Assembly (NCBI GenBank): GCA_033344815.1
Contig: JAWPMR010000001.1
Span: 1,040,136 to 1,104,135, forward strand
Source: Paracoccaceae bacterium
GTDB taxonomy: Bacteria; Pseudomonadota; Alphaproteobacteria; Rhodobacterales; Rhodobacteraceae
DNA: 64,000 nucleotides
Direction: 5' to 3'
Positions 20,823 to 25,011 of this stretch are shown here, one piece after another; position 1 is the first letter of the stretch, and every line of letters starts with the position of its first letter. A program made the translations under genes and the position numbers. Below the pieces are notes generated by a model that saw only the letters and a list, made by a program, of their open reading frames with translations, was not told the DNA's origin and searched no databases.

Positions 20823-21275
20823 TCACTCTTTCATGATTTCTCGTAAACGCGCTGATTCTGCCTCTGACAAGACCACCTCTTGAGGCGCAGAGATCTTTGC
20901 CCGACCGCGGATGTAGCCAATTCCAAGACCCAACCCGATCAGCAACATCAACGGCCCTGCGGCCCAGAGCAACCAGTTTGACCCACTGGCGCGGGGCGAC
21001 ATCAGAACAAATTCACCGTAGCGCGCCACAAAGAAATCCATCACCTGATCATCTGTTGAGCCCTCCGCGATCAACTCGCGCACGGTGCGGCGGGCGTCCT
21101 CAGCCCAGTTGGCATTGGAGGAGGCAACCGACTCTGATTGGCAGACCACGCAGCGCAATTCATGATCCAAAGCTCGTGCGCGCGCCTCAAGGGCGGGGTC
21201 CTCCAGCATCTCGGACGGATCAAGTGCCCAGAGGGGGCTCGCCAGAAAACTCAAGATGAGAATAAGGCGGATCAT
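20823..21275 (-). CDS. ccmH: Cytochrome c maturation protein CcmH
   Basis: 150 residues: a signal sequence (MIRLILILSFLASPLWA), the thiol-redox motif RCVVCQ at residues 41-46, a helical domain, and one membrane helix (SNWLLWAAGPLMLLIGLGLG) near the C-terminus. CcmH reduces the apocytochrome CXXCH thiols and works with CcmF during heme attachment in the periplasm. The short form lacks a CcmI-type TPR part, which must be elsewhere. The start overlaps the ccmF stop by 4 bases. Confidence 0.95.
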   Translation of the reverse strand: MIRLILILSFLASPLWALDPSEMLEDPALEARARALDHELRCVVCQSESVASSNANWAEDARRTVRELIAEGSTDDQVMDFFVARYGEFVLMSPRASGSNWLLWAAGPLMLLIGLGLGIGYIRGRAKISAPQEVVLSEAESARLREIMKE

Positions 21276-23236
21276 TCCGCGGGCACCGCTTTGACTTTGT
21301 TGCGCGCGCCTGCGGCAACCCGGAAGCGTCGGTCTGAAAGGCTGAACAGTCCGCCCAGAGACATCAGCGCACAGCCGATCCAGATCCAGTTGGTCAGAGG
21401 TTTAATATATGTGCGCACAGCCCAGCCCCCGCCCACCTGTTCGTCCCCGATCACCACATAGACGTCGCGTGCAAGGTCATAATCAATTGCCGCTTCTGTT
21501 GTGGGCATCTGGGCCACCGGATAGATGCGTTTTTCCGGTTCCAGTTGTGCAATCACGTCTCCGCCTTGAGACAGAGTAATGTAGCCTGTGGTCGACAGGT
21601 AATTAGGCCCCTCGCTGCGGACCACATCGTTTAAAGTCAGCGTGTAGCCACCGACTTCAAAGGGTTCGCCGAACTGCGCCACCTGGATGTCTTCCTGCTG
21701 CCAGGCCATCAGGCCAGAAACGCCCATGATCGTGACGCCGAGACCTGCATGCGCGATCGCTTTACCCCAGTCAGCACGTGGCAGGCGGGTCAACCGCGCC
21801 CAACGTCCAGGTCCGCGACCCGTGCGTTGTGCCAGATCAACGACAGTACCCATGATGACCCAAGCCGCCAGAAACATGCCGATGGGCCCCAACAGCGTGC
21901 GCCCGGATTGCATTGCAAAGACCAAACCGCCAATGGCCACGGCCAATAGAAAGAGATAGCGCAGGGGACGCAGTGCCCGCATCATCCGCGCCCGCTTCCA
22001 AGGCATCGCCGATCCGATGGGCAAAATCAGCCCAAGCATCAGCATGAAGGGTGAAAACGCCATGTTGAAAAATGGGGGCCCGACGCTGAGTTTGCGATCA
22101 AAGAACATCTCCGCAATCAACGGCCACATCGTGCCGACGAACACCACAAAGCAAGATACCGCCAAAAGTAGATTGTTGGCCACCAAGGCGCTTTCGCGGC
22201 TAACGACGCTGAAGACACCTTTCGCTTCCATCGTGCTGGCCCGTATCGCAAAAAGCAACAGAGCACCGCCCATGAAAAACGCCAAGATCATCAAGATGAA
22301 GACGCCACGCTCAGGATCATTTGCGAACGCATGCACCGACGTCAAAAGGCCGGAGCGCACAATGAATGTGCCAATCAGTGAGAAGCCAAACGCAAGGATG
22401 GCGAGCAGGATGGTCCAGCTTTTGAGCGCCTCGCGTTTTTCCACAACAATCGCGGAATGTAACAGGGCGGCAGCCAAGAGCCATGGCATGAAAGAAGCGT
22501 TCTCCACCGGGTCCCAGAACCAGAACCCGCCCCACCCGAGCTCATAATAAGCCCACCAGGAGCCCAGCGCGATCCCAATGGTCAAAAATACCCAGGCCGC
22601 CAAGGTCCAGGGTCGCACCCAGCGGCCCCATGCCGCGTCCACGCGCCCCTCCAGCAGCGCCCCAACGGCGAAACTGAATGTCATGCTCAGGCCGACGTAT
22701 CCCAAATACAGGAAGGGTGGATGGAATGCCAAGCCCGGGTCCTGAAGTAACGGATTCAAATCCTGACCGTCAAAGGGCGGCACAGCGAGACGCAAAAACG
22801 GGTTTGATGTGAACAGAATGAAGGCGAAAAAGGCCACAGCAATGGCCGATTGAACCGCAAGCACCCGCGCCCTTAAAGTGGGCGGCAAATTTCCACCAAA
22901 CCACGCCGCCATGGCCCCGAACAGAGTCACGATGAGCACCCAAAGCAACATGGAGCCTTCGTGATTGCCCCATGTACCGCTGATTTTGTAAAGCATCGGC
23001 TTTGCGGAATGACTGTTTAGCGTCACAAGCCGGAGGCTGAAATCAGAGACAATGAACGCATACATCAGCGCCCCGAACGAAAAAGCCGTGAGCCAGAACT
23101 GCGCTGTGGCGGCAGGTTCTGCCACCGCCATCCACGCAGGCCAACGTTTGTGCGCCCCGATCAGCGGAACAACCGTCTGAACGATGGCGACGATGAAGGC
23201 CAGGATCAACGCGAAATGTCCAAATTCAGTAATCAT
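21272..23236 (-). CDS. ccmF: Heme lyase CcmF
   Basis: A polytopic inner-membrane protein of 654 residues, the usual size, that takes heme from CcmE and joins it to apocytochrome c. The tryptophan-rich WWD heme-handling motif is GWGGFWFWDPVENASFMPWL, preceded by the conserved HPPFLYLGYVG segment. The frame runs open upstream to 23404, but MITEFGHFALILAFIVA from the ATG at 23236 is the canonical N-terminus. It is coupled to ccmH. Its neighbour upstream is not ccmE, as expected, but a holin gene ending 58 bases before it. Confidence 0.96.
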   Translation of the reverse strand: MITEFGHFALILAFIVAIVQTVVPLIGAHKRWPAWMAVAEPAATAQFWLTAFSFGALMYAFIVSDFSLRLVTLNSHSAKPMLYKISGTWGNHEGSMLLWVLIVTLFGAMAAWFGGNLPPTLRARVLAVQSAIAVAFFAFILFTSNPFLRLAVPPFDGQDLNPLLQDPGLAFHPPFLYLGYVGLSMTFSFAVGALLEGRVDAAWGRWVRPWTLAAWVFLTIGIALGSWWAYYELGWGGFWFWDPVENASFMPWLLAAALLHSAIVVEKREALKSWTILLAILAFGFSLIGTFIVRSGLLTSVHAFANDPERGVFILMILAFFMGGALLLFAIRASTMEAKGVFSVVSRESALVANNLLLAVSCFVVFVGTMWPLIAEMFFDRKLSVGPPFFNMAFSPFMLMLGLILPIGSAMPWKRARMMRALRPLRYLFLLAVAIGGLVFAMQSGRTLLGPIGMFLAAWVIMGTVVDLAQRTGRGPGRWARLTRLPRADWGKAIAHAGLGVTIMGVSGLMAWQQEDIQVAQFGEPFEVGGYTLTLNDVVRSEGPNYLSTTGYITLSQGGDVIAQLEPEKRIYPVAQMPTTEAAIDYDLARDVYVVIGDEQVGGGWAVRTYIKPLTNWIWIGCALMSLGGLFSLSDRRFRVAAGARNKVKAVPAE

Positions 23237-23294
23237 GAGCGAAGTATAAGGTACCGCTTGAAAACGTCCAATGACAATCGCGCTTTTCAGGTGA

Positions 23295-23885
23295 TCACTT
23301 TGTCGCGGTTTGCCGTTTTTTGGCTTGCCAATCTGCCAGCGCTGGATTGCCATCTGGCAGCACAGAAAGGGCGGACAGGCGTGCATCGTGCCCCGTATCC
23401 GCAAGTCCCGGCGTCGTTGGTTTCAGGCTGTTCAGGGCAGTGATGTTTTCGATCACGCGCGGCGCAATTGCCATGGTTTGAGCGATGGAGCGCTGAAATT
23501 GCTGGCTTTTGATCTGATGGCGCGCGCCAAAGTAAAAGGAGACGACCACCCCCAACAGCCACCAAAGCGGCTCTGGCACCAGTGCAATGCCTTGCATGCG
23601 CGCCGAGAACCAAATGGGATCAACCATCGCTGCAACAAAAAGCCCCAGTGTTCCGAGCGCCAAGGCAGGGCGCGGCAGACGGTTTACGCCATCCATCATC
23701 CGGTCAAACCAACCGTTTTTGGAGGATTCAAACTCTTGGGCGAACTGCTTCATCGCCTCCAGACGCAATTCCTGTGAACGGGATGCGCCCTCTTCCGCGT
23801 TCTCGCGAAACACCCCCGCCGTTTCTGTAATCACATTGCGGCCATTGCCAAAAATGGCGCTCAAAATGCCTGTAATCAAACCCAT
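23295..23885 (-). CDS. Holin of the 3-TM gene-transfer-agent type
   Basis: 196 residues starting at MGLITGILSAIFGNGRNV. A hydrophilic, coiled N-terminal half (ENAEEGASRSQELRLEAMKQFAQ) is followed by hydrophobic segments PRPALALGTLGLFVAAMVDP and PEPLWWLLGVVVSFYFGA and a polar tail. This matches the Pfam family of holins used for GTA release in Rhodobacteraceae. Such a holin opens the inner membrane so that the endolysin reaches the cell wall. The ATG at 23885 has AAAGGG upstream and overlaps the endolysin gene by 10 bases, so the two are coupled. The alternative longer start at 23963 lies inside the endolysin and is less likely. Confidence 0.85.
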   Translation of the reverse strand: MGLITGILSAIFGNGRNVITETAGVFRENAEEGASRSQELRLEAMKQFAQEFESSKNGWFDRMMDGVNRLPRPALALGTLGLFVAAMVDPIWFSARMQGIALVPEPLWWLLGVVVSFYFGARHQIKSQQFQRSIAQTMAIAPRVIENITALNSLKPTTPGLADTGHDARLSALSVLPDGNPALADWQAKKRQTATK

Positions 23886-24487
23886 GCCGAGACCCTTTGC
23901 TGAAACTGCTGCTCTGTCAGGTGGTATTGTGTTGCGATGAATTCCTCGGCGCGTTTGATCCATCCGCCTTTGCCGCCCTTGCGGGTCCGTGCGTATTTGC
24001 GACTTGCCGCGCGACGATCCGCAATACGGAAGTAATAATTGCGCCGGGCAATCCCGTAAGCATCGGAAAGATAATGGGACGCCTGCTCATAGGCCGCCTG
24101 CGTTGCCGCGATGCTCTGCGGGCCAAGCGCACCGTCGACCGCAACACGATGTCCCATGTCACAAAGCAGCCGTTGCAGAAGCTTGATCGCGTTGCTGCCC
24201 GCATTCACGTACATGTCAAAAACTGTCGCATGTAAGGCCGGTGGCAACAAAGCGATCAATGGCTTTTCGAAGTAATGCTTTTCAAATATTTCGATGGCTT
24301 GCTCTTTTCCGAGCGCACGCACATCCGAAACGGTCACGGCCCCGTCCCGATCAAGATCAATGCCCAACATGCGCATAGTATGGATCGTAACGCCAAATTT
24401 AGTTGCACCGCCCGGATCATCCGGGTCGTTTACGAAACCGCCCTCGCGCGCCACAATCTCGGACGCGATTTGTCTGACCGTTTGCAT
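23876..24487 (-). CDS. GH108-type endolysin (holin-associated N-acetylmuramidase)
   Basis: 203 residues. The N-terminal glycosyl hydrolase 108 domain carries the catalytic glutamate Glu15 in VAREGGFVNDPDDPGGATKF; the C-terminal half (VFDMYVNAGSNAIKLLQRLL, then VDGALGPQSIAATQ) matches the PG_binding_3 domain that follows GH108. It should cut the glycan chains of peptidoglycan. No signal peptide is seen, so export depends on the holin. RBS AAAGGGGACATGC precedes the ATG. In Rhodobacter capsulatus the GTA endolysin and holin also form a pair outside the main GTA cluster. Here the pair lies between ccmE and ccmF. Confidence 0.87.
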   Translation of the reverse strand: MQTVRQIASEIVAREGGFVNDPDDPGGATKFGVTIHTMRMLGIDLDRDGAVTVSDVRALGKEQAIEIFEKHYFEKPLIALLPPALHATVFDMYVNAGSNAIKLLQRLLCDMGHRVAVDGALGPQSIAATQAAYEQASHYLSDAYGIARRNYYFRIADRRAASRKYARTRKGGKGGWIKRAEEFIATQYHLTEQQFQQRVSAWV

Positions 24488-24537
24488 GCATGTCCCCTTT
24501 GCTTGCCTGTCGCGGCAACAAAGATGGACATAAAGAA

Positions 24538-24553
24538 GTTAATTCAAATTGAC
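24538..24553 (-). promoter_or_regulatory. Imperfect palindrome upstream of the endolysin gene
   Basis: On the plus strand GTTAATTCAAATTGAC: 7-base arms GTTAATT and AATTGAC around CA, with one mismatch. It lies about 50 bases before the endolysin start, in the only gap between ccmE and the lysis genes. On the coding strand it contains TTAAC, a CtrA half-site, but not the full TTAA-N7-TTAA. It is a candidate binding site or promoter element, not an identified operator. Confidence 0.3.
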
Positions 24554-24567
24554 AGCAGCGTGCGGTG

Positions 24568-25011
24568 CTACCCTTCGGTACCCTTGTAAACACCTTGTTC
24601 CTTCAAAGCGTCCACGACCTCTTTGGGCATGTAGGTCTCATCATGTTTCGCAAGTATTTCAGAAGCTTCAAAAACACCGTCAATGTAGCTTCCTGTACCC
24701 ACCATCCCTTGATTCTCTTCAAACAGGTCCGGCAGCACCCCGGTATAGGTCACGGGGATCACCGCGCCACCATCGGTCACACTGAACTTTATGGTTTTTC
24801 CCTGGCCGCGGACGATAGAGCCCTCTTCTACCAGACCACCAATGCGAAAAACTTCGGCAGGACCTGGGGGCTCAGCAATAATTTGACTCGGTGCCCGAAA
24901 AAAATTGATCCCGTCTCGCATGGCATATCCGATTAGCGCAGTAGAAAGCGCCAACGCGACAGCAGCTACTGCGATAATCTGAATACGACGTTGCTTTTTA
25001 AGGCTTTTCAT
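24568..25011 (-). CDS. ccmE: Heme chaperone CcmE
   Basis: 147 residues with an N-terminal membrane anchor (QIIAVAAVALALSTALIGYA, residues 11-30) and the periplasmic OB-fold. The heme-binding His123 and nearby Tyr127 lie in LAKHDETYMP. Blocks FRIGGLVEEGSIVR and VTYTGVLPDLFEENQGMV are typical. It receives heme from CcmC and passes it to CcmF. It starts 7 bases after argC and is probably read from the murI-argC transcript. ccmABCDG are not in the window. Confidence 0.95.
   Translation of the reverse strand: MKSLKKQRRIQIIAVAAVALALSTALIGYAMRDGINFFRAPSQIIAEPPGPAEVFRIGGLVEEGSIVRGQGKTIKFSVTDGGAVIPVTYTGVLPDLFEENQGMVGTGSYIDGVFEASEILAKHDETYMPKEVVDALKEQGVYKGTEG

Follow-up and report, generated by a model that had tools for sequence, protein, structure and literature searches.

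A GTA-type lysis cassette with a fixed address between ccmE and ccmF in Rhodobacterales and its putative separate switches

Endolysin and holin genes of the type that releases gene transfer agents (GTAs) are located in the middle of a cytochrome c maturation (ccm) operon of Paracoccaceae bacterium GCA_033344815.1. Such a location raises the question whether lysis is expressed together with the respiration genes around it or is switched separately. We analyzed the pair (C1:1063430-1064622) within a window of 64,000 nucleotides, which is the whole stretch C1:1040136-1104135 of this genome; positions given without a prefix are those of the window.

The lysis pair and its genomic setting

The first gene of the pair (minus strand, 23876-24487) encodes an endolysin of 203 aa, an N-acetylmuramidase with a GH108 and a peptidoglycan-binding domain, identified from its open reading frame and from Pfam and NCBIfam profiles. 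It matches the family of holin-associated N-acetylmuramidases (NF040573) with 345 bits at a cut-off of 240 and, in addition, PF05838 and PF09374. The second gene (minus strand, 23295-23885) encodes a three-TM GTA-type holin of 196 aa when read from the ATG at 23885; the longest open frame begins upstream of this codon, at 23963. The holin matches PF11351, “Holin of 3TMs, for gene-transfer release”, with 104 bits (cut-off 24.8). NCBIfam gave no match for it, and its PHROG matches were weak (E 0.042 and 0.17). With a muramidase of this family adjoined by a three-TM GTA holin, the pair is of a known kind, the GTA-type lysis cassette, as represented by rcc00555/rcc00556. The relation to GTA holins and endolysins, proposed in the preliminary description from the letters alone, is therefore borne out by homology searches. 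The two genes overlap by the ten bases described before (23876-23885 in the open reading frame listing), and of 56 loci measured, 55 share this overlap.

On the minus strand, the genes are ordered as murI-like racemase, argC-like, ccmE (24568-25011; PF03100), endolysin, holin, ccmF (21272-23236; PF01578 and PF16327), ccmH (20823-21275; PF03918) and enoyl-CoA hydratase (ECH), so that Pfam places the pair between ccmE and ccmF as first described. Of the ten window proteins scanned with Pfam, eight are encoded around the pair, namely an acyltransferase, an Asp/Glu racemase, a semialdehyde dehydrogenase (argC-like), CcmE, CcmF, CcmH, enoyl-CoA hydratase and citrate synthase. No phage structural or integration gene was detected among these neighbours. 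A prophage at this site was considered and rejected, since the scanned neighbours are cellular genes and the address is shared across loci. Elsewhere in the same genome, a frame of 368 aa encodes a further GH108-like endolysin that is only distantly related (39% identical; C1:4431411-4431782).

The GTA particle genes are located about 490 kb away from the lysis pair in the same genome. A GTA_TIM profile match (C1:561914-562804) and a GTA capsid match (C1:569254-570429) fall outside the window and no GTA structural protein was found among the ten scanned proteins, which agrees with the earlier statement that the window holds no such gene. More frames of the cluster were recognized by eye in the stretches L116 and L211 of this genome. 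A gene at C1:856887-857300 belongs to the DUF6456 family, to which annotated GafA relatives are assigned (PMC9638019). Upstream of it stands TTAACGAACGGGTAAC, which fits the CtrA site TTAAC-N6-GTAAC described for gafA in passages of PMC6363796. Both an RcGTA-type head-tail cluster and a gene of the gafA family are present elsewhere in this genome, as belongs to a cassette of this kind.

In Rhodobacter capsulatus, rcc00555/rcc00556 are likewise described as an endolysin/lysozyme and holin pair outside the head-tail cluster of RcGTA and under control of GafA and CtrA. GafA was described to bind the promoters of the GTA and of the lysis cassette, and induction of the endolysin requires both GafA and CtrA (PMC6363796). 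Putative CtrA half-sites are reported for the lysis cassette promoter (PMC9638019), and rcc00555/556 belong to the GTA co-expression module (PMC4158056). Disruption of rcc00555 is reported to lower gene transfer and to leave particles trapped inside the cells (Hynes 2012 as cited in PMC3423380); the authors of the latter point out that no direct lytic activity was shown. The pair of the window is a counterpart of rcc00555/rcc00556 by family only, and the ccm address, the hairpin and the ccmF promoter discussed below are absent from the R. capsulatus passages searched. Dshi_1756/1757 of D. shibae is a roseobacter endolysin/holin pair, likened here by family and description, and is induced by quorum sensing together with the GTA genes (PMC6473078). 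Caulobacter LypABC releases a related GTA, but it is not a holin/endolysin system (PMC13236601).

Location of the pair across Rhodobacterales

For comparison of the ccmE-ccmF interval, two sets of loci were used. The first consists of the best 80 of 532 loci (genome_contigs) and the second of 82 loci from genomes of the order, made up of the 30 best-scoring matches and 52 loci picked mostly one per genus, including 5 genomes without GTA_TIM. The two sets share five loci (L017/L120, L054/L098, L059/L088, L061/L128 and L078/L089), so that counts over 162 loci hold them twice and 157 loci are distinct. The pair has ccmE and/or ccmF beside it at 72 of 80 loci of the first set, at 79 of 82 loci of the second and at 146 of the 157 distinct loci. 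In the first set, the full order ccmE-endolysin-holin-ccmF was found at 54 loci, ccmE without ccmF at 2, ccmF without ccmE at 16 and no ccm match at 8. The corresponding numbers are 57, 12, 10 and 3 for the second set, where the loci without a ccmF match refer to the stretch covered downstream and one of the 12 (L109) has a short flank, and 107, 14, 25 and 11 for the distinct loci. Upstream of the pair, ccmE is missing and a cupin gene in divergent orientation is located instead at 19 loci, 18 of which are distinct. In Paracoccus ferrooxidans the annotated order is murI-ccmE-lys-hol-ccmF-ccmH.

The endolysin was detected in 283 of the 292 genomes of the order, of which 282 exceed the cut-off. 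In a class-wide sample it exceeded the cut-off in only 6 of 289, four from the family of the window's genome and two from one other family. Two loci of a second family of the class (L184 and L185, from genomes G486 and G372) encode an endolysin that is 52-54% identical together with a holin, and their short flanks gave no ccm match.

The ccmE-ccmF junction lacks the lysis pair at two loci (L170 and L171), both in genomes without the endolysin. Congeners of each carry the endolysin, and loss of the pair by deletion is therefore likely. The pair had been described as inserted between ccmE and ccmF. The location is correct, but a recent insertion does not agree with the comparison: the address is fixed across the order.

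Putative promoters and a predicted hairpin at the ribosome site of the endolysin

The gap between ccmE and the endolysin gene contains a conserved sequence, CGNACGNT-16 nt-TTAACC, which resembles GafA and CtrA sites and is read here as a putative GafA box (CGNACGNT) followed by a putative CtrA half-site (TTAACC). In the window, the putative GafA box for the lysis pair is CGCACGCT (minus strand, 24557-24564), assigned from the consensus of 87 loci and the match in the window, and the CtrA half-site-like TTAAC (minus strand, 24538-24542) follows 16 nt after CGCACG, likewise by consensus and window match. TTAAC was found upstream of the endolysin at 107 of 162 loci versus 8.0 in mononucleotide shuffles (104 of 157 distinct loci), mostly 45-64 nt before the ATG, and was not found in 55 of the 162 upstream regions. 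Anchored on TTAAC, the consensus of 87 ccmE-type loci selected for having this motif is CGNACGNT, with frequencies of C.91, G.94, N, A.62, C.95 and G.89 and with 16 nt from CGNACG to TTAAC. A search of both strands of 80 loci for the strict form CG.ACG-16-TTAAC gave 35 matches, of which 33 lie at the endolysin promoter; in the window it matches at 24564. The strict form is present in only 70 of the 157 distinct loci; many others have a looser form or none.

The first half of this element recurs upstream of GTA clusters. CG.ACG.T, the 8-mer class of CGCACGCT, was found 300-420 nt before the GTA large terminase gene in 10 of 17 GTA clusters versus 2.5% of random windows. A generic promoter scan of the window gave 4 matches versus 3.0 in shuffles and thus no excess; among its matches is a shifted reading of the ccmF sequence described below. 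A terminator-like stem after ccmE and before the lysis promoter was recognized by eye in Ruegeria-type and related loci (L029, L049, L054, L062, L064, L071 and L080). In the window, the terminator scan returned only a weak candidate (24572-24551).

The gap between the holin gene and ccmF, located at 23237-23294 in the window, was examined in 137 loci. In the window it contains the promoter-like sequence TTGGAC-17-TATACT (minus strand, 23243-23271), which ends 6 nt before the ATG of ccmF and would give a leaderless message. TAT[AG] (TATR) was found at -13/-12 of the ccmF ATG at 110 of 137 loci (106 of 132 distinct), and the promoter-like sequence lies 6-7 nt before the ATG. At control starts it was seen once in 119 ccmE loci and never in 60 ccmH, 102 ECH and 138 endolysin loci. 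SD-like sequences are scarce at ccmF (8/137) and also at ccmH (14/60), and their lack at ccmF is not unique. Together, TATR before the ATG and the rarity of SD-like sequences suggest that ccmF is made from a leaderless message off its own promoter across the order.

A hairpin (minus strand, 24489-24532), predicted by folding and covariation, covers the ribosome-binding site of the endolysin gene (SD approximately at 24493-24499). In the window it folds with -23.1 kcal/mol (z -4.3). Over the 162 loci, folding of the 48 nt before the endolysin is stronger than in dinucleotide shuffles, with a mean z of -2.07. The mean z is -2.19 for ccmE-type loci (n=125) and -0.59 for cupin-type loci (n=19; p 2e-5, the loci being related), and ccmF control regions show -0.2 to -0.9. 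The mean probability that the SD is unpaired was calculated as 0.22 at the endolysin of ccmE-type loci versus 0.42-0.53 at the starts of ccmE, ccmH, ECH and ccmF. Covariation was scored on ten aligned rows, namely the window plus nine loci from the best set. The score of 0.288 lies above 500 of 500 shuffles and above every slid control. Changes on both sides were seen in 10 of 18 hairpin pairs, a count which 2 of 500 shuffles also attain and one slid control equals; it was scored on the window's own structure, a choice favouring that structure. RNAalifold alone gave a weak consensus for the 10-row alignment (-0.15 kcal/mol), perhaps because stem lengths differ. In phage T4, a hairpin over the ribosome site of the lysozyme gene e silences read-through messages. 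The endolysin hairpin appears similar in covering the ribosome site of a lysozyme-type gene and in being conserved, though weak in RNAalifold; T4 belongs to a different phage group.

A z below -1.5 was reached at 2 of 22 loci with a divergent upstream gene versus 91 of 135 others. The idea that the hairpin occurs only where read-through is possible was rejected as proof, since this raw contrast fails when counted as independent events on the tree. The tree test comprised the 157 loci with five prophage-like ones excluded and offered 2 pairs on supported branches and 8 on all. With z<-1.5, the hairpin changed as expected in 0.6 of 2 pairs and the opposite way in 0.0; with z<-1, changes against the read-through idea (1.1) were more frequent than those for it (0.5). 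Five co-directional loci show no hairpin (L058, L085, L119, L130 and L141). A role of the hairpin as silencer of read-through from ccmE is favoured but unproven. The message from the pair's own promoter may carry the hairpin too, in which case the hairpin cannot separate the two kinds of message. The initial guess that this message starts inside the hairpin was given up once the upstream CGNACGNT box was noticed.

As far as the sequence tells, the pair is insulated from its host operon. It would also be possible that GTA induction raises ccmF and ccmH through read-through past the holin gene, as considered in the preliminary description, though ccmF seems to own a promoter.

Function, alternative readings and meaning

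Based on these features, the pair is probably a Rhodobacterales GTA lysis cassette, long established at its fixed address between ccmE and ccmF and switched separately from both. The explanation is held somewhat less firmly because fewer than half of the distinct loci have the strict promoter element. During GTA production, transcription of the pair would be started by GafA at CGNACGNT and by CtrA at TTAACC. The holin would then open the inner membrane, the muramidase would cut the wall, and the particles would leave. With less certainty, in non-producing cells the run-on messages from ccmE would carry the hairpin and allow little translation of the endolysin, and ccmF-ccmH would be served by their own leaderless promoter.

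The lysis pair is also found in genomes which appear to have lost the GTA particle genes. A GTA capsid match is absent in 29 of the 292 genomes of the order, 9 of which were deduced from gaps in the capsid match list. GTA-less is used here for the 23 genomes without a capsid match in which GTA_TIM is absent or has a best E of 3.7e-41 to 6.5e-25; 6 more capsid-less genomes with strong GTA_TIM were left out of this count. The endolysin is kept in 22 of the 23. DUF6456 was detected in 11 of 12 GTA-less genomes tested, which is a family match and not proof of GafA function. Both frames are open in all 19 of the 22 loci that were read, with an endolysin of 203 aa in 19/19 and a holin frame of 158-193 aa. 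ccmE is located upstream in 19/19 and ccmF downstream in 15/19, and 8/19 match the bipartite promoter element. The endolysin DNA of one GTA-less genome, G027, is identical to that of Ruegeria sp. HKCCSA071 (L054). The pN/pS of pairs ranges from 0.07 to 0.60, mostly 0.1-0.4, and GTA-less genomes resemble GTA-bearing ones, also when compared among each other. A tie between presence of the pair and the head-tail genes was considered and rejected: 8 of 9 genomes without the endolysin have GTA_TIM, and 11 of 12 without GTA_TIM have the endolysin. In the eight genomes with a GTA_TIM match and no endolysin of this kind (G013, G081, G110, G141, G145, G149, G227 and G247), particles would therefore be released by other means or not at all.

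Persistence of the pair without GTA could be explained by recent loss of the GTA or by an independent use. A general module for programmed lysis under GafA, used but not owned by the GTA, is an unlikely reading of the cassette. The retention of the endolysin in GTA-less genomes would fit such a module and would not be predicted by a purely GTA role, and the DUF6456 matches, the open frames and pN/pS values within the GTA-bearing range point in the same direction. However, loss of the GTA occurs here and there among the genera and may have been recent, much of the pairwise divergence may predate it, the DUF6456 match does not prove GafA function, and the bipartite element is matched in fewer than half of the GTA-less loci read. 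More narrowly, and still doubtfully, the pair and GafA might form a lysis module that outlives the GTAs. Lineages without the particles would then retain a GafA-family gene and an intact pair at the shared address for programmed lysis of few cells, and the hairpin would block killing by read-through and so make a place within a respiratory operon tolerable.

It is very improbable that the pair belongs to the ccm operon like any other gene in it, expressed from ccm promoters with lysis tied to cytochrome c maturation. Such a reading would explain the same strand and order with both neighbours at 111 of 162 loci (107 of 157 distinct), and also the codon-bias survey in which ccmE is among 14 gene families tracking GTA genes (PMC9765227). 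The authors of this survey judged the chaperone-like class of ccmE less likely to participate directly; adjacency of the lysis pair may be relevant to their result, although the survey extends to orders beyond our address comparison. Against transcription from ccm promoters, which had been considered as one possibility earlier, stand the pair's own conserved promoter-like element, the hidden ribosome site of the endolysin (SD unpaired 0.22), the 19 cupin-type loci without ccmE, the promoter-like sequence of ccmF and the 12 loci of the second set in which no ccmF match follows (L109 with a short flank). Since the pair has its own promoter-like element and ccmF has another, the anatomy of the locus gives no support for lysis being coupled to the respiration genes.

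Related lysis genes are known from viruses. In IMG/VR, both genes were found at 53 of 80 loci, and the endolysin is 56-73% identical at 59 of the 80. These cassettes resemble the window's pair in the endolysin and the often overlapping holin but differ in their setting, as none of the 80 loci has a ccm match beside the lysis genes. All 313 matching records of GenBank phages show less than 60% identity to the endolysin. In a tree of 143 endolysins, which includes a random 70 of 151 ccm loci and whose bootstrap is not settled, the setting must have changed, on supported branches, no fewer than 5 (ccm) to 7 (virus) times. Among the 11 loci that lack ccm genes, five resemble prophage copies. L040 and L043 encode endolysins identical to IMG/VR ones, L023 clusters with these, and weaker branches join L037 and L038 to viral rows. 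That the pair at this site is the leftover of a prophage lysis cassette without a GTA role is the least probable reading, since the IMG/VR cassettes and the changes between phage and ccm setting on the tree would fit it but the ten scanned window proteins contain no phage protein besides the pair, pN/pS is mostly 0.1-0.4, the promoter box is of GTA type and disruption of rcc00555 is reported to lower gene transfer in R. capsulatus (Hynes 2012, cited in PMC3423380).

Among the matches listed from the open-access literature searched, no passage mentions the fixed address, the insulation and hairpin, the ccmF promoter or the survival of the pair without GTA. GTAs kill the cells that produce them, so the location and wiring of the kill switch bear on the persistence of GTAs. 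If the pair is indeed a GTA lysis cassette switched separately from ccmE and ccmF, its fixed address in the ccm operon with flanking switches would show how a lethal phage cassette can be domesticated harmlessly. Its presence in GTA-less genomes would permit a direct test of whether the suicide part is retained for its own sake.
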